From the NCBI GenBank assembly GCA_902774035.1, contig CACYHA010000021.1:1-36631 (forward strand): a DNA stretch of 36,631 nt, in the 5' to 3' direction. This stretch comes from Oscillospiraceae bacterium (GTDB taxonomy: Bacteria > Bacillota > Clostridia > Oscillospirales > Acutalibacteraceae). Made by a program: the position numbers and the translations under genes. Of the stretch, positions 2,570 through 16,675 are shown in pieces. Position 1 is the stretch's first letter. Each line of letters begins with the position of its first letter. The notes beneath the pieces were generated by a model. The model did no database searches. It worked only from the letters and a program-made list of their open reading frames with translations, and was not told the DNA's origin.

Positions 2570-5383
2570 TCACTGTTCGCTCGGATACTCGCCCTTGCCG
2601 GTGATCTTGCGCTTGATGATCTTGCCCATGCGCTTGAGGGCATAGGGGCCGACGAGCTTCATCATCTCTTCCGCCGTGTGCATGTCGGAGCAGGCGGGCA
2701 GGTCGCGCGTCAGATGGATCGCGTCGAACTCGCACCGCGTGGTGCAAAGGCCGCAGCCGATGCACATGTTGAAATCCACAGTCGTTGCGCCGCATTTGAG
2801 ACAGCGGGCGGCTTCGGTTTTGATCTGTGCTTCCGTCAGCGGCAGACGCAGGTCGTCAAAGCTCTTACGCGGATCGCCGGGTTTGAGACCGGGCGCCTGG
2901 CGCGGAGCGTTGTCGTAGGATTCGATCTTGATGTCGTCCTTGTCCAGCTCGATGAATTCGCGCCTGTCGCGGCCGATGGTCAGCGACTGCCCCTCGTGTA
3001 CAAAGCGGTTCAGCGAAACCATGCCCTCGCGGCCGTCGGCGATCGCGTCGATGGCAAAGCGTGCGCCGTGGAAGATGTCGCCCCCGACAAAGATGTCGGG
3101 TTCTGCGGTCTGCAGGGTCACGGGATCGGCAACCGCCGTACCGTTCGGGCGTAGTTCGACCTTGCTGCCTTTGAGCAGATCGCCCCATTCGGCGCTTTGG
3201 CCGATGGCCATCAGCACGTTTTCGCAGGGGACGGTGATCGTGTCGTTTTCGTCGTACTGCGGGGCGAAGCGATGGTTCTCATCGAAGACACGGGTGCATT
3301 TTTTGAACACCACGCCGGTGACGGCGCCGCCTTCGGAGAGGATCTCCTTCGGGCCCCAGCCGTTTCGGATCTCAATGTTTTCCGCGAGGATCTCGGCGAC
3401 CTCGTCTTTAGCCGCCGGCATCTCGTCGCGGCTTTCGAGGCAGAGCATGGTGACTTTGCCGTCGGTGCAGCGCAGGGCAGTGCGCGCTACGTCGGCCGCC
3501 ACGTTGCCGCCGCCGATGACGACCACGTCGCCGGAAAGGGCGGTGTTGCCGCCGAGGTTGACGTCCTTCAGGAAGGCCACGCCGCTTTGTACGCCTTTGG
3601 CGTCTTCTCCCGGAACGCCCGCAAGGCGTCCGCCCTGCAGGCCGATGGCCACAAAGAAGCCTTTGTAGCCCTGTGCGCGCAGCTCGTCAAGGGTGACGTC
3701 CCTGCCGACCTCAACGCCGCATCTGATCTCGGCGCCCATGCTTTCGATGAGGTCGATCTCTTTTTGCAGCACATCTTTTTCCAGCCGGAAATTCGGGATG
3801 CCGTTCATGAGCATACCGCCGGGTTTCGCTTCTTTTTCGAACACGGTGACCGGGTAGCCTTCGGTGCGCAGATACCACGCGGCGGAAAGGCCGGCCGGGC
3901 CGGCGCCGATGACGGCGATCTTATAATCGCTCCACTGATTGCCCTCGCCGTTTTCGCTGGGCACGGTGCATTCCGCCGGGTTTTCCAGCTCCCACTGGGC
4001 AAGGAACTTTTTGATCTCGTCGATGGCGACGGGCTTGTCGAGCTTGCCGCGGGTGCAGGCGTCCTCGCAGCGACGGTTGCAGACTGCGCCGCAGACCGCC
4101 GGGAACGGGTTGTCCTGGCGGATGAGCTTCACCGCGTCGGCATAGCGGCCTTCGCCCGCCATTTTGACATAACCCTGCACGGCGATGTGCGCGGGGCAGG
4201 CGGTCTTGCACGGGGAGGTGCCGCTGGCGTAACAGTTGATCTTGTTGGAATCGCGGTAGTTTTTGTCCCACTTATCCTCGCCCCAGACATGGTCGTCGGG
4301 CAGGTCGTGGACGGGATACATGACCTTGCTGCCGTCTTTTTTGCAAAGCTTCTGGCCGAGCTTGGCCGCGCCGGCCGGGCAGACCTCCACGCATTTGCCG
4401 CAGGCCACGCATTTTTCCGTATCCACATGGGCGCGGTAGGCGGAGCGGCTCATGTTCGGCGTGTTGAAGAGCTGGCTGGTGCGCAGACCGTAGCAGGAGC
4501 CGGCCGAGCAGTTGCAGATGCCGACAATGCGGTTCGGGCCGTCAAGGTTCGTGATCTGGTGCACATAGCCCTTGCGTTCGGCGCGCGTGATGATCTCCAG
4601 TGCCTCTTCCTTGGTGATGTATTCGGCGTCCTTGCCGCTTTCCACCAGAAATTCCGCAATGTCGTTGAGACCGATGCACATCTTGCCCTCGATATCGCCC
4701 ACGCCTTCGCCGCGCACACGCTGAGCCTTGCGGCAGGCGCAGACCATTTTGCACAGCTTGGTGGAATTGTTGATCCAATGGGAAAGATGCTCCACACTGG
4801 CGCTCTCGATCTGCGGATCAATGGCTTTTTCCACGGGGATGACATGCATACCGATGCCTGCGCCGCCCGGAGGAACGAGCTTTGCCGCCAGTTCCAGCGG
4901 TTCCTGGGGCGCGAGGTTGAACATGGTTGCCACTTCGGGGTTCGTCTCACACAGGGTTTTGTGCTCCACCATGTATTCGCCCGAGCCGACGACCCACTTC
5001 GGGATCCAGTACTGGATGTGCCCGTCGGCGTTGTCGCGGTTCTGCTCGATGATGCCGATCCACACCAGATGGTCGATGACCTTCTGGGCCTCTTCCTCGC
5101 GCATGCCGTTGCGTTCGGCGAGCTCTTTGGTGGTCAGGCCGACGCGGCGCGCCTTGAACGAGAGCATGAACTTGACTTCGTCCTTGGTCAAAAGGCGGTC
5201 AAGGATCCAGAAGTCCATGTGGTTTTCCTTCATCTTGCCCGGAAGCTTGCGCGGAATGGAGTCCGTGATCAGCACGGCGAGCTTTTTGACAAGCTTCGCC
5301 TTTTCCGGGTCGTCGCACCGGTGGTCGTCTACCGGATAGTCGCGTTCGTTGACGTGAATGTTGGGATTGACTTCTTTAACCAT
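2570..5383 (-). CDS. GltD-like FAD/NAD(P) oxidoreductase with multiple Fe-S clusters (paralog A)
   Basis: The 937-residue, probably cytoplasmic protein starts at the ATG at 5383, with a GAGG site overlapping the previous stop. In order: a winged-helix-like segment (about 60-115); a Cys-rich domain with CxxxCxC (Cys211, 215, 217), Cys236 and CNCxxxxC (Cys290, 292, 297); a ferredoxin motif CVACGKCVEVC (325-335); a glutamate-synthase-small-subunit-like Cys region (392-443); an FAD site GAGPAG (about 493) and a second dinucleotide site (VVVIGGGNVAADVA) as in GltD/NfnB; and a C-terminal ferredoxin motif CIGCGLCTTRC. It probably moves electrons between NAD(P)H and a redox partner through FAD and Fe-S clusters. 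It is last in the isomerase operon, 10 bp after the reductase, and has a close paralog at 13547-16327. The partner is not shown by the sequence. Confidence 0.85.
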   Translation of the reverse strand: MVKEVNPNIHVNERDYPVDDHRCDDPEKAKLVKKLAVLITDSIPRKLPGKMKENHMDFWILDRLLTKDEVKFMLSFKARRVGLTTKELAERNGMREEEAQKVIDHLVWIGIIEQNRDNADGHIQYWIPKWVVGSGEYMVEHKTLCETNPEVATMFNLAPQEPLELAAKLVPPGGAGIGMHVIPVEKAIDPQIESASVEHLSHWINNSTKLCKMVCACRKAQRVRGEGVGDIEGKMCIGLNDIAEFLVESGKDAEYITKEEALEIITRAERKGYVHQITNLDGPNRIVGICNCSAGSCYGLRTSQLFNTPNMSRSAYRAHVDTEKCVACGKCVEVCPAGAAKLGQKLCKKDGSKVMYPVHDLPDDHVWGEDKWDKNYRDSNKINCYASGTSPCKTACPAHIAVQGYVKMAGEGRYADAVKLIRQDNPFPAVCGAVCNRRCEDACTRGKLDKPVAIDEIKKFLAQWELENPAECTVPSENGEGNQWSDYKIAVIGAGPAGLSAAWYLRTEGYPVTVFEKEAKPGGMLMNGIPNFRLEKDVLQKEIDLIESMGAEIRCGVEVGRDVTLDELRAQGYKGFFVAIGLQGGRLAGVPGEDAKGVQSGVAFLKDVNLGGNTALSGDVVVIGGGNVAADVARTALRCTDGKVTMLCLESRDEMPAAKDEVAEILAENIEIRNGWGPKEILSEGGAVTGVVFKKCTRVFDENHRFAPQYDENDTITVPCENVLMAIGQSAEWGDLLKGSKVELRPNGTAVADPVTLQTAEPDIFVGGDIFHGARFAIDAIADGREGMVSLNRFVHEGQSLTIGRDRREFIELDKDDIKIESYDNAPRQAPGLKPGDPRKSFDDLRLPLTEAQIKTEAARCLKCGATTVDFNMCIGCGLCTTRCEFDAIHLTRDLPACSDMHTAEEMMKLVGPYALKRMGKIIKRKITGKGEYPSEQ

Positions 5384-5393
5384 AATCTACCTC

Positions 5394-6578
5394 TTATTCG
5401 ATCGGGATCTTGATCGTCAGATCGCTTGTGGGATAGGCTGCGCAGGCGTGGACGTAGCCGAAGTCCTTGTCGGCGCTGCGGCGGCCGTCATTTTCCGGAC
5501 AGACATAGACCGAGCCGGAGAGGACCTTCGTGCGGCAAAAACCGCATTCGCCGCTGCGGCAGGCGGTCTCGATGCGGATGCCGGCGCGTTCCAGCGCCAC
5601 GACCAGGCTTTCTGTCGCTTTGGCCGGGATCACGTCTTCGCGGACGCCGCGGCGCACGGTCAGATTGAACACATGGTTCGTCAGCGCCACGGGATAGCCC
5701 GCAAATTTGGTGATGTCCTTCGCCTGGCCGAAAACCTCAAAGCGCACACGGCGCTGCGGCGCGCCGAGCTTTTTCAGCTCTTCGCGCAGATAGAGATACA
5801 TCGCCTGCGGGCCGCAGATGAAATAGGTCGTGTCGGGGGCGGAATACTTTTGAATCAGCTCCGCGGAAAGGAAGCCGCGCTCGCCCTGCCAGTCGGGTTC
5901 GTCGCCGGAAAGGACGTGGACCACATGGACCTTGTCACTCTGAATGGCGTTCAGTTCATCTTTGAGAATGATGTCGTCGGAGGCGACAGAGCCGTAAAGG
6001 ATGGTCAAATCAAAATCCAGCGTGCCGTTTGCGATTTCCTTGGCCATGGAGGCGAAGGGCGTGATGCCCACGCCGCCGGCAAGGGCGACCACATGCTTTG
6101 CGTCGCGCAGCGGTTCATAGTAGAACTGGCCGCAGGCCATGCGGGCGGTGAAGGTGTCGCCGACTTTGACGCTGTCGTTGACGAGATCGGCGATGAAGCC
6201 GTCGCCTTTGGAGCGGCGGACGGTGATCTCCGCAAAGCCGTTTTCCATCCGCGCCTGATACGGGGCGGAGGAGATGGAATAGGGGCGGGAGATGACGGAA
6301 TCGCCGACGGTGAAATCCAGCACGATGAACTGACCGGCATAAAAGAACGGGAGTTTCTGCCCGTCGGAACGCACAAAGCGCACGGTCTTTGCCGTGGGGC
6401 TGGCGTCGCGGATCTCCGTGACGGTCACGTCGAATTTTTTCGGGTGCCACTGGGCGACCACATCGGCGATGGGGTCGTTCGTTTCGGGCACAGGCGACGC
6501 GCTTTCAAAGGCGTTCAGCCTTGCTTTGGTCACACGGGACGCGCCCGTGACGTCTTTCAAAAACCCTTTGATCTTCAT
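5394..6578 (-). CDS. NAD(P)H:flavin/[2Fe-2S] reductase (FNR family)
   Basis: 394 residues. After an N-terminal extension of about 45 residues comes a ferredoxin-reductase beta barrel with the FAD motif RPYS (98-101), then an NAD(P) domain with GGVGITPF (168-175) and CGPQAM (255-260), and a C-terminal plant-type [2Fe-2S] domain with Cys340, Cys345, Cys348 and Cys379. This order matches phenol-hydroxylase-reductase and Hcr-type electron-transfer proteins, which pass electrons from NAD(P)H via FAD and [2Fe-2S] to an oxygenase or reductase partner. The start overlaps the stop of the upstream CrtI-like gene by 4 bp, implying translational coupling. The flavoproteins encoded upstream are natural candidate partners. 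No signal peptide. Family assignment is firm; the partner is inferred. Confidence 0.9.
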   Translation of the reverse strand: MKIKGFLKDVTGASRVTKARLNAFESASPVPETNDPIADVVAQWHPKKFDVTVTEIRDASPTAKTVRFVRSDGQKLPFFYAGQFIVLDFTVGDSVISRPYSISSAPYQARMENGFAEITVRRSKGDGFIADLVNDSVKVGDTFTARMACGQFYYEPLRDAKHVVALAGGVGITPFASMAKEIANGTLDFDLTILYGSVASDDIILKDELNAIQSDKVHVVHVLSGDEPDWQGERGFLSAELIQKYSAPDTTYFICGPQAMYLYLREELKKLGAPQRRVRFEVFGQAKDITKFAGYPVALTNHVFNLTVRRGVREDVIPAKATESLVVALERAGIRIETACRSGECGFCRTKVLSGSVYVCPENDGRRSADKDFGYVHACAAYPTSDLTIKIPIE

Positions 6579-8107
6579 TTGAGCGCCTCCTCTGCTGCCA
6601 TGGTGTCCAGCACGTTCTTTGCCGCTTTTCTGCCGTTGGTCACGGCGGGGCCCATGCCGTCGCCGGAGATCGCGTGGGCGCCGGAAAATTCAAGATGTTT
6701 GATAAAGCTTTCTTCCTCGGCTGTCTGCAGCCGCGCGATGATGTGGTCTTCCATCGTGTGGGCGTAACCGTAGATGCAGCCGTTCCAGGCGTTGGTGTAG
6801 CGGTTGACGGTCATCGGCGTTTCAATGACGATCTCGAGAATGTGATCGCGAAGCTTGACGCCGAGGTATTCCGACATATCGTCGATCATCTGCGCGGCGA
6901 CCTGGTGCTTGACCTTATCGTAATCTTCGGCTTTGACGGTCTTCCAGCCGTCCACGCGCGGCAGCGTCGTGATGGAATAGGAACAGGTCCCCGGCGGGGT
7001 GGCGGTGTCGTTGCCGAGGTTGTGGCAGATGCAGGTCAGATAGCGGTAGGGGCCGAGACCGGCGAGGTCTTCATACAGCGCGTCGGTGTCCATCGTGTCG
7101 CCGCGGAAGACGCTGTAATCCCGAATGCCGAGATGCTCGGCGGTGTCGTCGAGGATCATGATGACCGAGAAGGCCGTCAGGCTCAGCCGGCGGCCGTTGA
7201 CCATTTTGATGGCCTTGGCCGGAACCGCCGAGGCCGGTTCGATCATCGAGGTATAGACCTTGTTGGGATAGGACGAGGAAATGACGTAGTCGGCGTAGAT
7301 CTCGTCGCCGCGCGCTGTGCGCACACCGTAAGCCTGCCCGTCCCGGACAAGGATCTTGTCCACGTGCTGGCGGTATTCGATCTGCACGCCCATCGCCTCG
7401 GCGCGTTCCGCCATTTTGAGGCTCATCTCATGGCTGAATTTGCGAGGAATATAGGAGCCGAAGCCCACATAGTCCGCCATCAGCACGGCATAGATCGTGA
7501 ACGGCAGGGTGTTGAAGCCGGAGCCGACGTAGATCCAGTACGGCGCGAGCAGATCCTGCGCCTTTTTCGGCAGATCGAACGAGTCGATGACCTCCTGCGC
7601 GGTGTAGCCGGCGGTCTTGACGAAGGCTTCGTGTTTGAGCAGCATCTTCGCCTTGCTCATCGGATGGATGGACAGCTCGTTGACGCTGTTGAACACGGTG
7701 GTGCAGAGATTCAGCAGATCCAGCACCTTCCGATAGGTGCCGGGCACGGCTTCGTCCACTTCTCTGGCGAAGGTCTCGAGCCCGGGGTGCAGCGTGACCT
7801 CGAGGCCGGGCAGGGAGGCGTGGTAAGCTTCGGGCACCTTCAGCCATTCGATGTCCACGCCCATGTCATCAAAGAATTTGCCGACCTTCAGGCGGTTGTC
7901 CTTTTCGCCGATGCTCATCATCTCGTGGAGCGCCGCTTCGATCTCGATGCCGCCGCGCACAAAGGAGGACGCGATGCCGCCGGGGAGATTGTGGCGTTCG
8001 AGCACCAGCACGTCCTTGCCCTTTTCGGCGAGCATCAGCGCCGAGGAAAGCCCGGCAAGCGCACCGCCGATGACAATGACGTCATAATGGTCTTTGTAAA
8101 AATTCAT
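6575..8107 (-). CDS. CrtI/retinol-saturase-like FAD oxidoreductase
   Basis: 510 residues. The N-terminal Rossmann motif is VIVIGGALAGLSSALML with GGALAG at about 14-19, followed by the ADP-ribose-binding acidic residue in LVLERHNLPGG. Near the C-terminus GDGMGPAVTNGRKAA matches the second FAD-contact motif of the phytoene desaturase, carotene isomerase and retinol saturase superfamily. These enzymes desaturate, isomerise or saturate C=C bonds in hydrophobic polyenes. Beside a fatty-acid-isomerase homolog and NAD(P)H reductases, a double-bond reductase acting on a conjugated fatty acyl chain is a plausible inference, not shown directly. Start chosen at the ATG at 8107 with GAGAAGG upstream. 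It is second in the operon, after a short intercistronic hairpin. Confidence 0.8.
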   Translation of the reverse strand: MNFYKDHYDVIVIGGALAGLSSALMLAEKGKDVLVLERHNLPGGIASSFVRGGIEIEAALHEMMSIGEKDNRLKVGKFFDDMGVDIEWLKVPEAYHASLPGLEVTLHPGLETFAREVDEAVPGTYRKVLDLLNLCTTVFNSVNELSIHPMSKAKMLLKHEAFVKTAGYTAQEVIDSFDLPKKAQDLLAPYWIYVGSGFNTLPFTIYAVLMADYVGFGSYIPRKFSHEMSLKMAERAEAMGVQIEYRQHVDKILVRDGQAYGVRTARGDEIYADYVISSSYPNKVYTSMIEPASAVPAKAIKMVNGRRLSLTAFSVIMILDDTAEHLGIRDYSVFRGDTMDTDALYEDLAGLGPYRYLTCICHNLGNDTATPPGTCSYSITTLPRVDGWKTVKAEDYDKVKHQVAAQMIDDMSEYLGVKLRDHILEIVIETPMTVNRYTNAWNGCIYGYAHTMEDHIIARLQTAEEESFIKHLEFSGAHAISGDGMGPAVTNGRKAAKNVLDTMAAEEALK

Positions 8108-8127
8108 AACTTACCTTCTCTCGTAAA

Positions 8128-8155
8128 GCAGGAGGGACAGCGTTGCCCCTCCTGC
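8128..8155 (-). promoter_or_regulatory. Intercistronic 9-bp hairpin
   Basis: GCAGGAGGG (8128-8136) pairs with CCCTCCTGC (8147-8155) in the 65-bp gap between the isomerase and CrtI-like genes. On the minus strand only TTTA follows, so full termination is unlikely. It may tune expression or stabilise the upstream message. Confidence 0.45.
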
Positions 8156-8172
8156 CGGATTGTGTTGCGTGA

Positions 8173-9561
8173 TTAGAAGAAGCGTTCCACCAGCTCGCGG
8201 GAATATTCCGCGGTCTCGTCCATGTCGCCGAAGCTCATGATCTCGCCGGCGTAGAAGGTGTCGTACTTGCCCTGCATGGCTTCCACTTTTTCATACCAGC
8301 CGTTTGCATAATCTTCGGAGAAGACATGGGGGAAGTAATAGACGCTCCACTCATTGACCACATTGGTGGCCGGGTTCTTCATGGTCTTGAGGTCGTCGAG
8401 CACCATCTGCTTGCAGGTGTCGTAGGGGATTTCTTCGGTGTCCTTGTGCTTGCGCAGCGCATAGGTGGTGATGACCTGATCCTTTGTGTCCTTCCAGCGG
8501 CGGTAATAGACCATCAGATGGCCGAGCTTTTCGGGCACCATATTGTCGAACACATAGTAGGAGATCTCCGGGTGATCCTCGGGCTTGGTCTCCACGGCGA
8601 GAACGTCGTAACGCTCGTAGTCGATCTTGGAGAACAGGGCTTTTTCGTCCTCGCGGGCGTCGAAGTAATCCACCATACCGACCTGGCCGTCGGCGCGCTT
8701 GTTCGGGATGTACAGCGGCGCGGTGACGATGATCTTGTCGTATTCCTCCACTTCGCCGTTGACGGTCACATAGACCTTGCCGTCTTTCCGCTCCACCTTG
8801 TCGATTTTGCTGTTCAGGCGGGCGGGGTTCTTCAGATGGTTGTTCAGGCTTTCCCAGATGAACTGGGTGCCGTTCTTCCAGGTCCACAGGTTGATCTTCA
8901 CGAAGTTCATGCAGGTCTGGAAGTCGAGATACTTCAGCACATAGGCGGCCGGGATCTCGTCAAAATAGCCGTAGCCGAAGGAGGTGAAGGGGCCGATCCA
9001 GACATCCTGCGTCAGTTCCACGCCGTTCATTTTGCAAAACTCGTTGAAGGGCAGGCAGAGGTCTTTCAGGTTCGGGTTCACACCGGAAACGGGCTCACGC
9101 TTTGCGCTCTTCTGCGAAAAACCTTCATAGCGGCCTTCGCACACGCCGCGGTGACCGTTGAGGTCATAGCCCTGATACTTGGTCTCGAGGATCTCGCCGA
9201 GCTTTTTGATCTGCTTTTTCATCTTCAAAAGACGCGGGATCTTGAGGATGTTCTTCTTCGGCTCAAACGGCTCGATGACGTTGCCGTTGCCGTCTTTATA
9301 GTTGCGGTTCAGAGCCGGGCCGTCGTGGGTGATGCCGCAGAACTCTTCCACGTCGTGGACAGCGTAATAGGAGGGCACGCCCATGATGGCGCCCATTTCA
9401 TAGCGTTTGCCGTTGTAATGCGGCGACCAGCATTTGCCGCCCACGCGATCCAGACGTTCGAGGATGGTGTAATTGTTGTAGCCCTTCTGCTCCAGGTACA
9501 TGCCTGCGGAAAGACCGGCGGGGCCCCCGCCGACGATGCAGATGCGGATGTTCTTGTCCAT
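8173..9561 (-). CDS. Polyunsaturated fatty acid isomerase-like flavoprotein (linoleate/CLA isomerase homolog)
   Basis: 462 residues, FAD-dependent amine-oxidase fold. The N-terminal GGGPAG (11-16) is followed by AGMYLEQKGYNNYTILER, VGGKC and YEMGAIMGVPSY. Later blocks are ETKYQGYD, FGYGYFDEIPAAYVLKYLDF, LGHLMVYYRRW, YYFPHV, and a C-terminal MQGKYDTFYAGEIMSFG, the FAD-closing motif. From memory these blocks match the Cutibacterium acnes polyunsaturated fatty acid isomerase, which converts linoleic acid to trans-10,cis-12 conjugated linoleic acid, nearly in register. This protein is somewhat longer than that enzyme, partly through an insertion around residues 78-90. It is first in the minus operon, has its own strong promoter and a GGAGGAATTCTT ribosome site. 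Substrate and double-bond positions are not predictable here. Confidence 0.85.
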   Translation of the reverse strand: MDKNIRICIVGGGPAGLSAGMYLEQKGYNNYTILERLDRVGGKCWSPHYNGKRYEMGAIMGVPSYYAVHDVEEFCGITHDGPALNRNYKDGNGNVIEPFEPKKNILKIPRLLKMKKQIKKLGEILETKYQGYDLNGHRGVCEGRYEGFSQKSAKREPVSGVNPNLKDLCLPFNEFCKMNGVELTQDVWIGPFTSFGYGYFDEIPAAYVLKYLDFQTCMNFVKINLWTWKNGTQFIWESLNNHLKNPARLNSKIDKVERKDGKVYVTVNGEVEEYDKIIVTAPLYIPNKRADGQVGMVDYFDAREDEKALFSKIDYERYDVLAVETKPEDHPEISYYVFDNMVPEKLGHLMVYYRRWKDTKDQVITTYALRKHKDTEEIPYDTCKQMVLDDLKTMKNPATNVVNEWSVYYFPHVFSEDYANGWYEKVEAMQGKYDTFYAGEIMSFGDMDETAEYSRELVERFF

Positions 9562-9608
9562 AAGAATTCCTCCAATTAAGATGTAATCAGGTAGGTCATA
9601 CCAAATCT

Positions 9609-9636
9609 ATTATATATTTTTCTCAAAAAAAATCAA
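9609..9636 (-). promoter_or_regulatory. Promoter of the isomerase operon
   Basis: On the minus strand TTGATT (9636-9631) and a consensus TATAAT (9614-9609) are spaced by 16 bases, within an AT-rich tract about 48 bases upstream of the isomerase ATG. Just downstream, GGTAGGTCATACC (9591-9603 region) has a short interrupted dyad (GGTA...TACC) that could be an operator; that part is weak. Confidence 0.7.
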
Positions 9637-9761
9637 TACGATTTTGCTGCCTTTAATAAAATTCCATAAAAAAGTTTAAACAATTCTAAATTCATAGACA
9701 AATGTCGCAAAATGGAGATCCGTAAACATCGGCCAGCCCCGGTTTTTGATAAAAATCCCGG

Positions 9762-9820
9762 CGGAGAAAAAAGAATTTCCATTCGGGCTTTCTTTTTTTC
9801 TCCGGTTGTGTTATGATAAT
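9762..9820 (+). promoter_or_regulatory. Inverted repeat and putative promoter of the ligase operon
   Basis: CGGAGAAAAAAGAA (9762-9775) is mirrored by the arm at 9789-9804 with one bulged base, ending eight bases before a likely -10 box TATGAT (9812-9817). No good -35 box is visible where expected, where the repeat arm lies instead, so the promoter may need an activator or be blocked by a repressor on the dyad. A second imperfect dyad (CCGGTTTTT...AAAAATCCCGG, about 9739-9761) lies next to it. Confidence 0.5.
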
Positions 9821-9850
9821 GATGAATAAACTGGAACAGGGGAGCGAACC

Positions 9851-11176
9851 ATGCGTTTTTCATCGTTTGCGCAGATGCTGCGCCACTTTGCCGCGCTGTC
9901 GCCGGACGCCCCGGCGTTCAAAACCGAAGCGCACGGCGTTTTGACGGAGGTTTCCTATGCCGCGTTCTGCGCGGCTGTGGAAACGCGCGCGGCCGAACTG
10001 CAACGGGACGCGGGCACCTGCCTTGGCGTCCTTTGCGACGGGAGCCTTGCCTGTGTGACGGAGATCTTTGCCGCTGTGCAGGCGGGCAGGCAGGTGGTGC
10101 TGCTGAACGAAGACGCAACGCCCGATCTGCTGCAGGCGGCCGACGCGGACTGCCTTTGGGGCGACGGAGATTTGACCGAAGCGCTTTCTCCGGCGCTGAC
10201 CGGCGGCGTTAAGGACGGCAGAGGAAAGCTCCTGTTTTTTACCTCCGGCACCACGGCGAAAACCAAGGCCGTGGTTCTTACAGAACAGAGTCTTTGCGCC
10301 AGTGCCTTCAACGGCGGCGCGCTGCTGCCGCTGCAAAAGGACGATGTGCTGCTGTGCATGCTGCCGCTTGACCATGTGTTCGGCTTTGTGTGCGGCCTGT
10401 TGTGGGGGCTTTCCTGCGGGGCGTGCGTCGCCCTCGGTAGAGGGGCGCGGCACTATTTTGACGACTGCGCGTTTTTCCGGCCGACGGCGCTTTCCGCCGT
10501 GCCGCTGCTGCTGGGCTTTCTTTTGCAAAAGGACCTGCTGGGCGATACGCTGCGTCTGGTGCTGATCGGCGCCGGCGACTGCCCGCCGCAGATCCCGGCT
10601 GCGCTGAAAGCGAAGGGCGTCCGCGTGTCCTTCGGATACGGACTGACGGAGACAAGCTCCGGTGTGGCGCTGTCGCTCGGCGACGACCCTTATGCCATGA
10701 CGGTCTGCCCCGACGACAGGATCACCCTTGCCGAAGACGGCGAGATTTTGATCGAGGCGCCGACCTGCATGATGCAGGGCTACTACAAAGACGCTGCGGC
10801 AACAAAGGCCGTGCTGTACGACGGCGTGCTGCACACCGGCGACCTGGGTTCCTTTGACGAACAGGGTCTGCTGCATATCCGCGGCCGCAAAAAAGAGATC
10901 CTTGTGCTGCGCGACGGAACAAAGATCTTTTTGCCGGATTATGAAAAAGCGCTGCTGCCCGCGCTGCAGGGCCGCGACTTTGCCGTGACCGAACAGGACG
11001 GCGTGCCCGTCCTTATCCTTTGCGGCAGCGAAGACGAGCGCGAAGCGCTGACCGCCGCGCTGGAACCGCTGATGCGCGATCTTCCGCTCGGCCGTCGGCT
11101 GCGTGCGATCCGCTTTGTCCGTTCACCCTTGCCGCGCACGGCAACGGGTAAGATCAAACGCTGGGCAATCCAGTAA
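9851..11176 (+). CDS. Compact acyl-adenylate-forming ligase (AMP-binding family)
   Basis: 441 residues, shorter than typical acyl-CoA synthetases (500-650). ANL-superfamily core motifs are present in order: TSGTTAKTK (131-139, phosphate loop), YGLTET (263-268), HTGD (328-331), the hinge region GRKKEILV (about 345-352), and the C-terminal catalytic lysine in ATGKIKRW (Lys434). The enzyme should activate a carboxylic acid with ATP and pass the acyl group to a thiol. With an acyl carrier protein gene 14 bp downstream, the acceptor is probably that ACP rather than CoA. The start follows AGGGGAG. It is first in a tightly packed plus-strand operon divergent from the fatty-acid-isomerase operon, which makes a fatty acid the leading guess for substrate. 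Confidence 0.88.
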   Translation: MRFSSFAQMLRHFAALSPDAPAFKTEAHGVLTEVSYAAFCAAVETRAAELQRDAGTCLGVLCDGSLACVTEIFAAVQAGRQVVLLNEDATPDLLQAADADCLWGDGDLTEALSPALTGGVKDGRGKLLFFTSGTTAKTKAVVLTEQSLCASAFNGGALLPLQKDDVLLCMLPLDHVFGFVCGLLWGLSCGACVALGRGARHYFDDCAFFRPTALSAVPLLLGFLLQKDLLGDTLRLVLIGAGDCPPQIPAALKAKGVRVSFGYGLTETSSGVALSLGDDPYAMTVCPDDRITLAEDGEILIEAPTCMMQGYYKDAAATKAVLYDGVLHTGDLGSFDEQGLLHIRGRKKEILVLRDGTKIFLPDYEKALLPALQGRDFAVTEQDGVPVLILCGSEDEREALTAALEPLMRDLPLGRRLRAIRFVRSPLPRTATGKIKRWAIQ

Positions 11177-11190
11177 AAGGAGAGAATGCT

Positions 11191-11436
11191 ATGACAAGAC
11201 AGGAAATCATGGACACGACGATCACCATCGTCTATGAATGCGTACCCGAGCTGGAGGGGAAGCCGCTGGAGGAATCCACGGTCATCAACACCGACACGGG
11301 CATCGACTCCATGGGCTTCACGCTGATCATCTGCCGCCTGGAGGCGACGTTCGACGTCAAGATCCCCGACCGCCAGTGGAAAAAGCTCTACACCCTCGGC
11401 GACGTGGTCTCGGCGATCGAAAAACGGCTGAAATGA
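11191..11436 (+). CDS. Acyl carrier protein
   Basis: 81 residues, the usual ACP length, acidic, with the phosphopantetheine attachment serine in GIDSMGF (Ser40), where DSM replaces the common DSL. The flanking helices fit the four-helix ACP fold. Preceded by AGGAGA and placed between an acyl-adenylate ligase and an acyl-ACP thioesterase whose start codon overlaps its stop (ATGA), so it is most likely a pathway-dedicated carrier rather than the housekeeping fatty-acid-synthesis ACP. No phosphopantetheinyl transferase is present in the window. Confidence 0.9.
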   Translation: MTRQEIMDTTITIVYECVPELEGKPLEESTVINTDTGIDSMGFTLIICRLEATFDVKIPDRQWKKLYTLGDVVSAIEKRLK

Positions 11437-12182
11437 GCGCGGAGATCTACCGCAAGGAGTATCGGATCCTTTCGTCCGACACGGACTGCCTGCGCCGCCT
11501 TCGGCTGAGCCGGCTGTTCACTTTTTTGCAGGAGGCCGCCATCGCCCACACGGAAGCGCTGGGCATGGGCCGCGCAAAGACGCTGGACAGGGGTCTTCTC
11601 TGGATCGTGACGCTCCAGCAGGCGAAGATCAAGCGCCTGCCGGTCTATGACGAGCGCGTGATTCTGGAGTCGGTGCCCGGACAGACGATGCATACCTTCT
11701 TCCCGCGTTATTACCGGCTGACGGACGAAAACGGAAACGAGCTGGTGAACGCGGCGGCCCTCTGGGCGCTGATGGACTGCAGAACGCGCACGATGGTCTT
11801 TCCCGAAAAGTTCGGCGTAAGGATCGACGCGCAGCAGACTTCGTGGAAGACGTTTCTGCCCCGGCCGCCGAAGCTGCCGGAAAACGCAGAGGCGCGCGCC
11901 TTTACCGTGCCCTACAGCTACGTGGATCTCAACGGCCATATGAACAATACCCGCTATTTCGACCTTGCCGAAGATTTGCTGCCCGACGAGGTGCGCCGCG
12001 GCAGTGTGCGCGAGATCCTGACGGAGTACACGGGCGAAGCGAAGGACGGCGAAACGCTGCGGCTGGAGCTTTCGCGCTGCGGCGGGGAAGTCCGCCTTTG
12101 CGGCACGGGCAGCAAGCGGCTGTTCCGCATTTCGATGCAATATGATTTGGAGGGAGATCCCCTTGGACTATCAAATTCTTGA
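11433..12182 (+). CDS. Acyl-ACP thioesterase (FatA/PF01643-like)
   Basis: 249 residues, starting at the ATG that overlaps the ACP stop (ATGA at 11433-11436); the longer open frame upstream is only the ACP gene read in another frame. The length fits two tandem hot-dog domains. The first opens with IYRKEYRILSSDTDCLRRLRL and QEAAIAHTEALG. The second carries YVDLNGHMNNTRYFDLAEDL, matching the plant and bacterial acyl-ACP thioesterase catalytic segment with the Asp-x-Asn-x-His arrangement. It should hydrolyse acyl-ACP to free fatty acid and ACP. Having both a loading ligase and a release enzyme for one ACP suggests a load-modify-release cycle. Confidence 0.88.
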   Translation: MSAEIYRKEYRILSSDTDCLRRLRLSRLFTFLQEAAIAHTEALGMGRAKTLDRGLLWIVTLQQAKIKRLPVYDERVILESVPGQTMHTFFPRYYRLTDENGNELVNAAALWALMDCRTRTMVFPEKFGVRIDAQQTSWKTFLPRPPKLPENAEARAFTVPYSYVDLNGHMNNTRYFDLAEDLLPDEVRRGSVREILTEYTGEAKDGETLRLELSRCGGEVRLCGTGSKRLFRISMQYDLEGDPLGLSNS

Positions 12183-12834
12183 AACCAAAGAGCGCGTACT
12201 GGCCGACAACGAAAGAGCCGCCGCGCAGACCAGAGAAGCGCTGCAAAAGAGCGGTGCGCTGCTGGTGAATCTCATGGGTTCGCCCGGCGCGGGCAAAACG
12301 ACCACGCTGCTGCAGCTCATCGAACGGCTGGGCAAAGACTTCCGGATCGGCGTGATGGAGGCCGACGTGGATTCCGACGTGGATTCGAAAACGATCGCCG
12401 CCACGGGCACGAGGGTCATCCAGCTCCACACGGCAGGCCTTTGCCACATGGACGCCGACATGACGGCGCGTGGGCTGGAAGCGATGGACACGCGCGGGCT
12501 GGATCTGATCTTTCTGGAAAACATCGGGAACCTTGTTTGTCCGGCGGAATTTGAGATCGGCGCCGATCTGCGCCTGATGCTGCTTTCCGCGCCGGAGGGC
12601 GACGACAAGCCGCTGAAATATCCGCTGATGTTCCAAATCAGCGACGTGCTGCTGCTGACAAAGATGGACACGGCCGAGGTCTTTGGCTTTGACGCCGAAA
12701 AAGCGGCCGCCCGCGCAAAGGCGCTCAACGGAAGCCTTCGGGTGATCCCGGTCAGCGCCGTCACCGGCGAGGGCTACGACGAAGCCGCGGCGCTGCTGAA
12801 AGAAAAACTGGCTTTGAGGAGGACGGGCGCATGA
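12163..12834 (+). CDS. hypB: HypB-like nickel-binding GTPase, copy 1
   Basis: Start chosen at TTG 12163 (MDYQILETKE), 7 bases after GGAGGGAG; an ATG at 12142 in the same frame lacks such spacing and lies deeper in the thioesterase gene. 223 residues. Walker A GSPGAGKT (39-46), switch-region Asp residues in EADVDSDVDS, and the HypB metal site: Cys94-His95 in AGLCHMD plus Cys126 in ENIGNLVCP. HypB hydrolyses GTP to hand Ni(II), received with HypA, to [NiFe]-hydrogenase or other nickel enzymes. No N-terminal His-rich or CxxCGC nickel-storage sequence. It overlaps the thioesterase by 20 bp and the second HypB by 4 bp, so it belongs to this operon despite the unrelated neighbours. Confidence 0.88.
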   Translation: MDYQILETKERVLADNERAAAQTREALQKSGALLVNLMGSPGAGKTTTLLQLIERLGKDFRIGVMEADVDSDVDSKTIAATGTRVIQLHTAGLCHMDADMTARGLEAMDTRGLDLIFLENIGNLVCPAEFEIGADLRLMLLSAPEGDDKPLKYPLMFQISDVLLLTKMDTAEVFGFDAEKAAARAKALNGSLRVIPVSAVTGEGYDEAAALLKEKLALRRTGA

Positions 12835-13496
12835 AGATCATTGAACTCGGCGCGAGCGTGACGGCCTCCAACGACCGCGACGCCGAAGCGCTGCGCGCGA
12901 GGCTGAAAGCGAAGGGCATTCTGCTGGTCAACGTCATGAGCGCGGCCGGCAGCGGCAAAACGACCCTGCTCTCGCGCATTGTGAAAGACATGAAAGACCT
13001 GCGTTTCGCCGTGCTCGAGGCGGACATTGCCTCGGATGTGGACGCGCTGACCATGGAACAGGCCGGCGCAAAGAGCGTGCAGGTGCATACCGGCGGCATG
13101 TGCCACATGGACGCCGGCATGACGGCGGCGGCCTTTGACGCGCTGGAGTCGACCGATTTCGACATTGCCTTTCTCGAAAACGTGGGCAATCTGATCTGTC
13201 CGGCGGAATACGACACCGGCGCGGCGCTCAAGCTGATGATCCTCTCCGTGCCGGAGGGCGACGACAAGCCGCTGAAATATCCGCTGATGTTTGCCGAAAG
13301 CGACATCCTCGTAATCTCCAAGACCGACGCGCTGCCCTATTTTAACTTTGACGTTGAAAAGTGTATCTCCAGAGCGAAAAAGCTGAACCCGGGCATTGCC
13401 GTTTTTCCCGTGTCCGCCAAAACCGGCGCGGGCATGGAGGCGCTGGAAAGCGCGCTGCGGACAATTCGGAATTCCGAATTCCGAAATCCGAATTAA
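12831..13496 (+). CDS. HypB-like nickel-binding GTPase, copy 2
   Basis: 221 residues, start codon overlapping the stop of the first HypB (ATGA). Walker A is SAAGSGKT (37-44). The metal residues Cys91-His92 and Cys123 in ENVGNLICP are kept, as are the NKxD-like SKTD and the DDKPLKYPLMF block shared with copy 1. The two are clearly homologous but far from identical, so the duplication is old or they come from different sources. HypB works as a dimer, so a heterodimer or division of labour is possible. The last ten residues (RNSEFRNPN and neighbours) are encoded by a palindromic heptamer repeat and do not look like native HypB sequence, suggesting the original C-terminus was altered by insertion of that repeat. 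Confidence 0.85.
   Translation: MKIIELGASVTASNDRDAEALRARLKAKGILLVNVMSAAGSGKTTLLSRIVKDMKDLRFAVLEADIASDVDALTMEQAGAKSVQVHTGGMCHMDAGMTAAAFDALESTDFDIAFLENVGNLICPAEYDTGAALKLMILSVPEGDDKPLKYPLMFAESDILVISKTDALPYFNFDVEKCISRAKKLNPGIAVFPVSAKTGAGMEALESALRTIRNSEFRNPN
13463..13493. repeat. Palindrome plus heptamer repeat at the end of hypB copy 2
   Basis: AATTCGGAATTCCGAATT (13463-13480) is a perfect 18-bp palindrome. From 13471 the sequence runs as three heptamers (ATTCCGA, ATTCCGA, AATCCGA) followed by ATT. It supplies the last codons and part of the stop of the upstream gene. Its composition differs from the surrounding GC-rich coding DNA. Confidence 0.75.
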
Positions 13497-13546
13497 ACTC
13501 AATTTCGTGTACCGAGGAAACCTAACAGATAGAAAGGATGAGTTTC

Positions 13547-16327
13547 ATGAAACCGCAAAAGAACCGCATGGTCAACGAGCGCGACTACGCGCAGGATCCC
13601 AATTACGTTGCCCCCGACAAGGAAAAGGAAAAGCTGGTGCTCAAGCTCGGCTCGATGATCACCGACCGCTACCTTGTCAAGTACACCCACACCATGGGTA
13701 CCGACGACCCGGAGTACTGGGCGCTGGATCAGATCCTGAACAAAGACGAGGTCAAGTTCCTGCTGAACTTCAAAAAGACCCGCGTGCCCTATGACATTCC
13801 GACCCTTGCGCAGATGAACGGAATGAGCGAGGAAGACACGCAGAAGATGGTCGATCATCTCTGCTGGATCGGCCTTGTGGAAATGACCCGCGAAGGGCCG
13901 GAAAAGACCAAGCACTACAACCTGCCGATCTTCGTGCCCGGTTCCGCCGAGTTCATGATGATGAACGACAAGCTGACCGAAGAGCACCCGAACCTTGCGA
14001 CCTTCTTCAACCTTATGACCCAGATGCCGCTGGAGGGCATCACGCAGATGGTGCCGCCGGGCGGCGCCGGCGTCGGTATGCACGTCATTCCCGTGGAAAA
14101 GGCCATCGAGCACGAGAACCACTCCGCCTCCGTGGAGCACATCTCCCACTGGCTGAGCAAGTATGACAAATACTCCGTCGGCCAGTGCACCTGCCGCAAG
14201 CAGCAGACCATGCGCGGCGAGGGCAGCGGCGAGATCAACGGCGAATTCTGCATGGGCGTGGGCGACATGGCGGAATACTCGGTCGACCGCGGCATGGGTC
14301 GTTACATCACCTATGAGGAGGCGCTGGAGATCCTTGAACGCGCCGAGCGCCACGGCTTTGTGCACCAGATCACGAACATCGACGGCGAAGAAAAGATCGT
14401 CGCCATCTGCAACTGCGCTCCGGGCGTGTGCAACGCCATCCGCACCAGCCAGCTTTACAACACCCCGAACATGAGCCGTTCGGCTTACCGCGCCCATGTG
14501 GAAAAAGAAAAGTGCGTGGCCTGCGGCAAATGCGTGGAGGTCTGCCCCGTCGGCGCGGCAAAGCTCGGCCAGAAGCTTTGCACGAAGCACGGCGAACAGC
14601 AGTACCCTGTCTCTGAGCTGCCCGACGCCAAGAAGTGGGGCGCCGACAAATGGAACCCGAACTACCGCGAGGACGCGAAGATCAACTGCTATGACACCGG
14701 CACCGCGCCCTGCAAAACCGCCTGTCCGGCGCACCTTGCCGTGCAGGGCTATGTGAAGATGGCCGCCGAGGGCCGCTATCTCGACGCGCTGAAGCTCATC
14801 AAGCAGGACAACCCCTTCCCGGCGGTCTGCGGCGCGGTCTGCAACCGCCGCTGCGAGGACGCCTGCACCCGCGGCACGGTGGATCAGCCGATCGCCATCG
14901 ACGAGATCAAGAAATTCATCGCCGCGCAGGAGCTGCACGCAGAGGGACGCTTTGTTCCGCTGTGTGAAAAGGACGACGGCGGCATGTGGGGTCCGGACTA
15001 TAAAATGGCGATCATCGGCGGCGGCCCGGCCGGCCTTTCCTGCGCCTATTATCTGCGCACCCGCGGCTACGATGTGACCGTGTTTGAAAAAGAGGAGCGC
15101 CCGGGCGGTATGCTCGTTTACGGCATTCCGAATTTCCGGCTGGAAAAAGATGTGATCGACGCCGAGATCGACGTGCTGCGCCGGATGGGCGTGGAGTTCC
15201 GCTGCGGCGTGGAGGTCGGAAAAGACGTGACGATCGCCTCGCTGCGCGAGGAGGGCTACAAAGCCTTCTATCTTGCCATCGGTATGCAGGGCGGCCGCAA
15301 GGCCGGCGTTCCGGGCGAAGACGCAAAAGGCGTGCAGTCCGGCGTGGAATTCCTGCGGGATATCAACGCGGATCCTACCCTGAAGCTCGGCGGCGACGTG
15401 GTCGTCATCGGCGGCGGCAACGTGGCCGTGGATGTGGCGCGTTCCGCTGTGAGAGCAACGGACGGCAAGGTCACCATGCTTTGTCTGGAGGGCGAAGGCG
15501 AAATGCCGGCGGCCGACGACGAGGTTGCCGAAGCGAAGGAGGAGGGCATCACCGTGCGGAACGGCTGGGGCCCGAAGGAGATCCTGACCGAAAACGGCGC
15601 CGTCACCGGCGTGGTGTTCAAAAAATGCACCCGAGTCTTTGATGAAACCCACCGCTTCGCCCCGCAGTATGACGAAAACGAAACGATCACGGTCAACTGC
15701 GCCAACGTGCTGCAGGCCATCGGCCAGAGCGCCGTCTGGGGCGATCTGCTCAAGGGAACCAAAGTCGAGCTGCGCCCGAACGGAACGGTCGTCCACGATC
15801 CCGTGACCTTCGAGACCGCCGAATCCGACATCTTTGTCGGCGGCGACATCGGCCACGGCGCGCGCTTTGCCATCGACGCCATCGCCGACGGCAAGAAGGG
15901 CTGCGAGAGTATGCACCGCGCCGTGCATCCCGGCCAGTCCCAGACCGTTGCCCGCGACAAGCGCGAATTCATCGAGCTCGACAAGGACGACATCATCCTC
16001 GAATCCTTCGACAACGCCAAGCGCCAGATCCCCGGCAGCAAGCCCGGCAAGGCCACCGAGACCTTTGCCGACCTGCGTCTGCCGCTGACGGAAGAACAGG
16101 TCAAGATCGAAGCCGCCCGGTGTCTGGGCTGCGGCGCGACCGTGGTCGACCTCAACCGCTGCATCGGCTGCGGCCTTTGCACCACCCGCTGCGAGTTCGA
16201 CGCGATCCACCTGAGCCGCGATCTGCCCGAATGCTCCAAGATGGTGAAATGCGAAGACAAGATGCTTGCCGTCGGCCCCTACGCGCTCAAGCGCATGGGC
16301 AAGATCGCCTTCGGCAGAAAGAAATAA
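13547..16327 (+). CDS. GltD-like FAD/NAD(P) oxidoreductase with multiple Fe-S clusters (paralog B)
   Basis: 926 residues from the ATG at 13547, which is properly spaced from AGAAAGG; the ATG at 13538 abuts that site. Same plan as the protein at 2570-5383: winged-helix-like N-terminal part, Cys-rich domain (CTCRKQQ, then CNCAPGVC), ferredoxin motif CVACGKCVEVC, GltD-type Cys region (CKTACPAH...CGAVCNRRCEDAC), FAD motif GGGPAGLS, second dinucleotide motif VVVIGGGNVAVDVA, and C-terminal CIGCGLCTTRC. Long stretches are identical to paralog A (for example NTPNMSRSAYRAHV). Paralog A has CxxxCxC where this has CxC, so cluster ligation may differ. Sitting between hypB copy 2 and hypA in one operon, it probably supplies reducing power to the same pathway as paralog A. 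Confidence 0.85.
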   Translation: MKPQKNRMVNERDYAQDPNYVAPDKEKEKLVLKLGSMITDRYLVKYTHTMGTDDPEYWALDQILNKDEVKFLLNFKKTRVPYDIPTLAQMNGMSEEDTQKMVDHLCWIGLVEMTREGPEKTKHYNLPIFVPGSAEFMMMNDKLTEEHPNLATFFNLMTQMPLEGITQMVPPGGAGVGMHVIPVEKAIEHENHSASVEHISHWLSKYDKYSVGQCTCRKQQTMRGEGSGEINGEFCMGVGDMAEYSVDRGMGRYITYEEALEILERAERHGFVHQITNIDGEEKIVAICNCAPGVCNAIRTSQLYNTPNMSRSAYRAHVEKEKCVACGKCVEVCPVGAAKLGQKLCTKHGEQQYPVSELPDAKKWGADKWNPNYREDAKINCYDTGTAPCKTACPAHLAVQGYVKMAAEGRYLDALKLIKQDNPFPAVCGAVCNRRCEDACTRGTVDQPIAIDEIKKFIAAQELHAEGRFVPLCEKDDGGMWGPDYKMAIIGGGPAGLSCAYYLRTRGYDVTVFEKEERPGGMLVYGIPNFRLEKDVIDAEIDVLRRMGVEFRCGVEVGKDVTIASLREEGYKAFYLAIGMQGGRKAGVPGEDAKGVQSGVEFLRDINADPTLKLGGDVVVIGGGNVAVDVARSAVRATDGKVTMLCLEGEGEMPAADDEVAEAKEEGITVRNGWGPKEILTENGAVTGVVFKKCTRVFDETHRFAPQYDENETITVNCANVLQAIGQSAVWGDLLKGTKVELRPNGTVVHDPVTFETAESDIFVGGDIGHGARFAIDAIADGKKGCESMHRAVHPGQSQTVARDKREFIELDKDDIILESFDNAKRQIPGSKPGKATETFADLRLPLTEEQVKIEAARCLGCGATVVDLNRCIGCGLCTTRCEFDAIHLSRDLPECSKMVKCEDKMLAVGPYALKRMGKIAFGRKK

Positions 16328-16330
16328 GCC

Positions 16331-16675
16331 ATGCATGAGATGGGGATCGTGCTGCACCTTGCAAAAACGCTGGACGAGACCGCCGAACAGGAGAAACTGA
16401 CAAAGATCGGCCGGGTCGTTCTGCAGGTGGGCGAGGTGTCCGGCATCATGACGGATCTGTTCACCGACGCGTGGAACTATTTCAAAGGTCGTCACCCGGT
16501 GCTCAGCGAGAGCGAGCTGGTGCTGGAGACCATTCCCGCCGTGACCTGGTGCGACAACTGCAAGCGTACGTATGAAACCGTGAAATACGGCAAGGAGTGC
16601 CCGCATTGCGGCAGCGCAGAGACCTGGCTGCTCAAGGGCAACGAATGCATCATCAAAGAGATCGAGGCCGAATAG
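16331..16675 (+). CDS. hypA: HypA-like nickel metallochaperone
   Basis: 114 residues, the usual HypA length. It begins MHE, the N-terminal nickel-binding motif (His2), and has the zinc site Cys74-x2-Cys77 and Cys90-x2-Cys93 (WCDNC...CPHCG). HypA binds Ni(II) and works with HypB in loading hydrogenase or urease. It starts 3 bp after the stop of oxidoreductase paralog B and is last in the operon, before a strong hairpin. HypC, D, E and F, needed for the Fe(CN)2CO part of [NiFe]-hydrogenase, are not in the window, so the client protein is unknown. Confidence 0.9.
   Translation: MHEMGIVLHLAKTLDETAEQEKLTKIGRVVLQVGEVSGIMTDLFTDAWNYFKGRHPVLSESELVLETIPAVTWCDNCKRTYETVKYGKECPHCGSAETWLLKGNECIIKEIEAE

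Follow-up and report, generated by a model that had tools for sequence, protein, structure and literature searches.

The polyunsaturated fatty acid (PUFA) isomerase of Cutibacterium acnes, PAI, acts on free fatty acids, requires a methylene-interrupted diene and relies on intramolecular hydride transfer to shift the position of a double bond. The product of the characterised enzyme is trans-10,cis-12 conjugated linoleic acid (CLA) (PMC2885616), and C. acnes made trans-10,cis-12 CLA and no trans-10 18:1 (PMC7339423). Here, we describe a gene cluster organized around a PAI-like gene at positions 2570-16675 of contig CACYHA010000021.1 from an Oscillospiraceae bacterium (assembly GCA_902774035.1; genome 2.3 Mb, 85% complete). 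The window analysed was the whole 36.6 kb contig (36,631 nucleotides). From its architecture, we propose that the locus is probably a PUFA biohydrogenation cluster of ruminant-gut Clostridia.

Two other bacterial systems invite comparison. The CLA-HY/DH/DC/ER pathway of Lactiplantibacillus plantarum likewise converts linoleic acid through conjugated or enone stages into hydrogenated acids, but it employs hydration, oxidation and an enone reductase (Kishino 2013, via PMC13365329). A Pfam scan of the 11 cluster proteins, which did not extend to the remainder of the genome, found no member of the oleate hydratase (MCRA) family. Butyrivibrio fibrisolvens, with a linoleate isomerase and a CLA reductase, also isomerises and then reduces (PMC12254105), but it follows the trans-11 route and its isomerase is membrane-bound. 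One genome study detected no linoleate isomerase gene in Butyrivibrio (PMC6249431). The producers of trans-10 intermediates are described as unclear: C. acnes was their sole maker among 28 species and was judged unlikely to be the sole or main agent in vivo (PMC7339423), and the [Eubacterium] coprostanoligenes group, Muribaculaceae and the Lachnospiraceae NK3A20 group have been put forward as markers and candidates for the trans-10 shift (PMC9853040).

Results

The cluster consists of two divergent, closely packed operons comprising 11 genes. The 462-residue protein encoded at 8173-9561 matched the C. acnes PUFA isomerase 2B9W with an E-value of 8.9e-138 (phmmer), the next match lying at 1.7e-10; the alignment covers 416 chain residues, 226 of them (54%) identical, representing near full-length homology. 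A scan of species genomes for this isomerase found 199 relatives, and the 80 best among them, sharing 84-94% identity, are referred to here as the named loci. Residues R86, F195 and F220 align with PAI R88, F168 and F193, which we take to be the carboxylate clamp and active-site residues, and none of the 80 named loci deviated at these positions. By analogy with PAI, the enzyme probably conjugates linoleic or linolenic acid, yielding trans-10 isomers. The FAD fold and the clamp residues are shared with the C. acnes enzyme; unlike the latter, the cluster isomerase is accompanied by a reductase pair and by a triad of acyl-adenylate ligase, acyl carrier protein (ACP) and thioesterase.

The core of this arrangement recurred at the majority of the 80 named loci. 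Among the testable loci, namely those with enough flanking sequence for the gene concerned, the CrtI-like flavoprotein gene followed the isomerase gene in 75 of 76 and the NAD(P)H reductase gene followed in 67 of 68, while the ligase gene was divergent from the isomerase gene in 69 of 74, with the ACP in 61 of 64 and the thioesterase in 60 of 64. Four loci without an adjacent ligase (L037, L052, L063 and L076) had the triad elsewhere in the genome in all four cases, one ligase being cut at a contig start and one triad lying about 12 kb from the CrtI-like gene on the same contig; in the fifth, L086, the triad was about 6 kb away. L085 carried the isomerase with the ligase, the ACP and a displaced thioesterase, the CrtI-like and reductase genes were not beside the isomerase, and no CrtI match was found in its genome. 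Outside the cluster, once the cluster genes and the shadow frames on the strand opposite them had been set aside, a single open-frame similarity family, unannotated and at scattered positions, occurred in 13 of 87 loci, and all others in at most 4 of 87. Since the core recurs in most named loci, which were collected by the isomerase sequence alone, and the flanking families do not, the arrangement goes beyond chance.

Two side observations concern the isomerase gene itself. The genome G047 carries two PAI genes (L016 and L017), one located by a ligase-ACP-thioesterase triad and the other near a 673-aa AMP-binding protein. At L020, the isomerase has shrunk to a 109-aa open frame (9455-9784) beside the CrtI, reductase, GltD, HypA and HypB genes, and a TetR regulator sits between the GltD and reductase genes.

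The catalytic residues of the triad are conserved. The ligase has the AMP-binding fold with the catalytic lysine K434, and its residues T131, D331 and K434 were retained in 73 of 73, 71 of 71 and 70 of 70 aligned loci, respectively. Ser40 of the ACP DSM motif was present in 70 of 70 aligned loci. In the thioesterase, D168/N170/H172 were found in 69 of 69 and E201 in 66 of 69 aligned loci; the Asp/Asn/His set is presumably that of FatA/FatB-type enzymes, and together with the PF01643 match it identifies an acyl-ACP thioesterase of this type. The adjacent ACP and acyl-ACP thioesterase suggest that the acceptor of the ligase is ACP and not CoA.

The CrtI-like protein and its reductase appear to be a pair in their own right. 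Their genes overlap by 4 bp. In the reductase, Cys340, Cys345 and Cys348 were each retained by all 73 loci that could be aligned, and for Cys379 the figure was 72 of 72. When each partner was classed by its identity to the window protein, using author-chosen cut-offs of 65% and 62%, 26 loci were low for both, 48 were high for both, 1 was mixed and 0 showed the reverse combination (n = 75), the isomerase in the same loci being 84-94% identical. In addition, seven regions around distant CrtI relatives (31-39% identity) were read, and in each of the seven the reductase adjoined the CrtI-like gene while PAI was absent from the stretch. The types co-vary and the adjacency persists without PAI, which is evidence that the two form a co-inherited pair of partners; from this pattern, they look like a stable two-protein enzyme that has here been joined to the isomerase. 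One of the seven regions (L161:3594-5081) holds a second such pair of the source genome itself, 32% and 41% identical, again in a stretch that lacks PAI.

Collectively, these results bear out several parts of the initial annotation, which had proposed a PUFA-isomerase homolog at 8173-9561 together with a ligase, an ACP and an acyl-ACP thioesterase in two divergent operons: all the genes it named were present by domain or profile match, the closest solved homolog of the 8173-9561 protein is a fatty-acid isomerase, the triad is a constant companion of that enzyme, and the neighbourhood, whose conservation across genomes it had suggested comparing, is conserved. Its list lacked the three Hyp genes of the cluster, one for HypA and two for HypB.

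All 80 titles of the named records denote metagenome-assembled genomes (MAGs) or uncultured organisms. A ruminant host was named in 32 of the 80 (goat, sheep, roe deer, red deer, dairy cattle or water buffalo), a raw title count, uncorrected for how frequent ruminant MAGs are in the collection, and where a site was given it ranged from forestomach to ileum. A further 32 titles bear RUG-type names, which we take to stand for rumen uncultured genomes, and 16 give no readable source; human, pig, bird or mouse was named in none of the 80.

With the source genome counted each time, genomes with PAI numbered 5 of 34 in the genus, 4 of 150 in a family sample and 5 of 391 in a class sample, three of the last five matches being distant or partial. 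The isomerase is an accessory gene. FBPase was matched in 10 of 17 genomes asked, and in nine of these hosts it was 45-49% identical while the isomerase was 84-91% identical (the tenth FBPase was at 88%). This suggests horizontal transfer of the isomerase between lineages, and strong constraint on the isomerase could contribute to the contrast. Of the 87 loci, 46 were gap-free (two of these being unnamed copies of named ones), and in them the fourfold-degenerate sites of the isomerase gene had a median identity of 0.51, with 0.30 the lowest listed; given this strong divergence at synonymous sites, the exchange was not recent. Recent spread by plasmids was considered and rejected on the same sites and on a tblastn search in plasmids that gave one 28% match. 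Two loci labelled Sphaerochaetaceae (L044 and L061) carry cluster genes with isomerases at 90% and 88% identity, reflecting either transfer to spirochaetes or misbinning.

Both operons also carry GltD-like flavoproteins (937 and 929 aa, 66% identical to each other). Among the 38 cluster loci with at least 7 kb of flank on both sides, GltD was present in 26, HypA in 20 and HypB in 18. Relatives of GltD in Clostridia (47-73% identity) had HypA and HypB adjacent in 10 of the 13 regions read, which are part of 25 match places besides the window's own; the three regions without them are 73% identical copies within one genus. Nine of the ten GltD-HypA-HypB regions had no PAI in the stretch, and for one of these nine (L155) PAI lies on another contig of the genome. 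The GltD-like proteins, which the initial annotation had counted as cluster members, were accordingly rejected as core pathway enzymes, as they occur in 26 of 38 loci and belong with HypA and HypB to a separable module found in Clostridia where the stretches read hold no PAI. Such a distribution would also fit an unrelated neighbour module standing outside the fatty-acid pathway altogether, an explanation that we regard as a serious possibility while leaning against it: the module recurs with PAI or PAI-like genes, including the distant PAI-like proteins (27-30% identity) of L019 and L154, and in the window it occupies the strand of the ligase-ACP-thioesterase triad. In the modules of L019, L149 and L154, a DUF5692 protein (PF18948) adjoins HypA.

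HypB and HypA of the window correspond to the [NiFe] hydrogenase maturation proteins, with two TIGR00073 matches and a PF01155 match over the cut-off, TIGR00100 remaining under it. HypD and the NiFe large subunit gave no match in the source genome (G000, 85% complete), in G043 (96%) or in G098 (99%); the search covered 15 genomes, picked because they carry genes of the cluster or of the module, and detected HypD in 4 of them and the NiFe large-subunit family in 3. Because neither was matched in the source genome and its two relatives, HypA and HypB most likely serve a client other than [NiFe] hydrogenase, for which the GltD protein is the obvious candidate. This protein has 26 invariant Cys/His residues in 28 homologs (some of them from the same genome), and seven of these residues fall in the N-terminal domain. 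That domain, roughly 300 residues long and encoded at 13538-14470 and in the corresponding portion of 2570-5383, shows an invariant CxC...C...H...CxC...C pattern and had no Pfam or NCBIfam match. For the GltD-like protein P0011, the N-terminal domain drew ferredoxin-like PDB sequence matches, mainly to the 4Fe-4S part at about 318-345, and in a fold search the GltD part filled the match list, the model being weak (pLDDT 64). The 929-aa protein, and the 937-aa one by homology, share the fold of the GltD-like subunit of the electron-bifurcating transhydrogenases NfnABC/StnABC, but the Cys-rich unclassified N-terminal domain and the HypA/HypB neighbours set the window proteins apart. No open-licence publication was found linking HypA, HypB, nickel and glutamate synthase in Clostridia. 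As part of the joint reading, the GltD partner could be a putative new HypA/HypB-dependent, possibly nickel-containing, Fe-S flavoenzyme that couples exergonic hydrogenation to ferredoxin reduction, a role that we hold to be improbable as it stands. The features of the cluster are listed in Table 1. The divergent intergenic region displayed little conservation and no clear common operator in an alignment of close relatives.

Table 1. Genes and intergenic region of the divergent cluster (window coordinates; scores in bits)
Feature	Position	Strand	Basis
Fe-S/GltD-like flavoprotein 1, 937 aa, Cys-rich unclassified N-terminal domain	2570..5383	-	Fer4, Fer4_20, Pyr_redox_2
NAD(P)H reductase, FAD and [2Fe-2S] domains, putative electron donor of the CrtI-like protein	5394..6578	-	FAD_binding_6, NAD_binding_1, Fer2
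CrtI/carotenoid-isomerase/RetSat-like flavoprotein, putative conjugated-diene reductase, 510 aa	6575..8107	-	
PAI-like PUFA double-bond isomerase, FAD enzyme, 462 aa	8173..9561	-	phmmer to 2B9W and conserved residues
Divergent intergenic region, presumed promoters for both operons	9562..9850	.	between two divergent start codons
Acyl-adenylate ligase, putative fatty acid:ACP ligase, 441 aa	9851..11176	+	PF00501 117
Acyl carrier protein (ACP), 81 aa	11191..11436	+	PF00550 27.2 (cut-off 20.8)
Acyl-ACP thioesterase, 249 aa, start refined	11433..12182	+	PF01643 75.9, PF20791 32.1
HypB-type GTPase 1, real start perhaps slightly downstream	12142..12834	+	TIGR00073 221.8 (cut-off 121.2)
HypB-type GTPase 2	12831..13496	+	TIGR00073 235.5 (cut-off 121.2)
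Fe-S/GltD-like flavoprotein 2, 929 aa	13538..16327	+	GltD part like NfnABC/StnABC GltD-like subunit
HypA-type metallochaperone, 114 aa	16331..16675	+	PF01155 103.6; TIGR00100 71.8 (under cut-off 88.1)

Discussion

Our analysis of the window and its relatives establishes the gene content, the homologies, the conservation of catalytic residues, the co-inheritance and the recurrence of the cluster; on these we build a model whose substrate, tethering to ACP, trans-10 regiochemistry, direction of the CrtI reaction and role of the GltD/Hyp proteins are inferred. In this model, the ligase would activate free PUFA, such as linoleic and linolenic acid from feed lipids, and load it onto the ACP. The PAI-like enzyme, using intramolecular hydride transfer as PAI does, would then relocate a double bond and so form a conjugated diene, for which the trans-10,cis-12 type is the likeliest. 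The partner reductase, through NAD(P)H, FAD and its [2Fe-2S] domain, would keep the CrtI-like flavoprotein reduced, enabling it to add two hydrogens to the conjugated system and thereby saturate one bond, and the thioesterase would free a less toxic product. The GltD-HypA-HypB module may act as an optional redox supply or sink. The likely benefit to the bacterium would be PUFA detoxification together with electron disposal.

The regiochemistry of this pathway might be different, proceeding through cis-9,trans-11 CLA along the trans-11 route or mainly on linolenic acid. Sequence cannot reveal regiochemistry, and 54% identity permits a change; the residues aligned with the PAI clamp and active site are nonetheless invariant, and the characterised PAI makes the trans-10,cis-12 product, so that we consider this variant possible though doubtful.

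The CrtI-like protein has the common fold of the family that includes CrtI, carotenoid isomerase and retinol saturase, but it falls under the curated cut-offs (91.2 against 238.1 bits for TIGR02734 and 110.2 against 586.9 bits for TIGR02730) and, unlike the known members, is coupled to an FNR-type reductase. A search on retinol saturase in bacteria returned nothing relevant among the matches listed. Since the carotenoid-enzyme matches are weak, saturation is read from the context and the reductase partner; with a carotenoid desaturase as closest solved homolog and the cut-offs not reached, the saturase role is tentative. The initial annotation had proposed a saturase at 6575-8107 and had asked about the closest homologs of both flavoproteins; the answer favours the proposal for the isomerase and goes against it for this protein. 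An enzyme acting instead as a cis/trans isomerase or desaturase, with a cluster that yields conjugated products without hydrogenation, would be in keeping with the best family score, that of the carotenoid isomerase model TIGR02730, and with the nearest fold, and would equally account for the reductase, given that isomerases of this family need reduced FAD. The tight pairing with an NAD(P)H reductase, however, suits an electron-consuming enzyme, and retinol saturase belongs to the same branch as the carotenoid isomerase/CrtI flavoproteins; we therefore judge this explanation unlikely.

Several further considerations weigh against the biohydrogenation model. The named loci are the isomerase relatives closest to the window, and the ruminant tally is a raw count. 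The CrtI-like protein, in whatever direction it works, resembles carotenoid enzymes, if weakly. Distant CrtI-reductase pairs occur without PAI alongside, so that the pair may act on something other than a conjugated fatty acid. L017 has PAI with the ligase-ACP-thioesterase triad and no CrtI gene beside it; two further sites of its genome do carry CrtI-reductase pairs (49% and 33%), for which reason it is not an isomerase-only genome, and L085 is the clearer case of an isomerase without the reductase. PAI uses free acids, and the ACP step may consequently serve another purpose. The direction of the CrtI reaction and whether the substrate is truly ACP-bound are the main weak points, and the activity of the cluster, proposed from its architecture, is that of a candidate. 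Moreover, the enzymes of rumen lipolysis and biohydrogenation have been called well characterised (PMC9533493).

Also improbable is a biosynthetic cluster that builds a special acyl chain (conjugated, trans or other) on its own ACP for a lipid or small metabolite, with dietary PUFA not being the substrate: linked ligase, ACP and thioesterase genes are common in specialised fatty-acid synthesis, but no ketosynthase or acyltransferase family was found among the cluster proteins scanned, one outside similarity family alone exceeded 4 of 87 loci (the flanking genes being incompletely annotated), and to our knowledge Clostridia are not known to make the cis-9,cis-12 chains that would supply the methylene-interrupted diene required by PAI.

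Biohydrogenation of PUFA, which the initial annotation had proposed in similar form, is thus favoured by the isomerase homology, the neighbourhood, the triad and the largely ruminant source of the carriers, while its saturase step is not secured and its GltD enzymes are not core; and the scope given there, gut Clostridia, narrows to carriers among ruminant-gut MAGs, subject to the base rate of such MAGs, and does not extend to gut Clostridia in general. The cluster had also been thought undescribed, and no description was found in the open-licence literature as far as it was available. PAI homologs in rumen MAGs have already been published (PMC10019597, Zhang et al.), and a gut linoleate isomerase has been described as MCRA-like (PMC11271093); what is new lies in the combination of genes and in its modular logic. 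As all 80 named records are MAGs or uncultured organisms, pure-culture surveys may have missed the cluster, which could explain its absence from them.

Nickel chaperones may have a new client, a hint that comes from the presence of the GltD-HypA-HypB module in genomes where no [NiFe] hydrogenase was found. Ruminal biohydrogenation sets the polyunsaturated, trans and saturated fat that reaches milk and meat, and the candidate isomerase-reductase cluster, by its sequence signature, opens the question of the genes responsible for biohydrogenation to direct testing.

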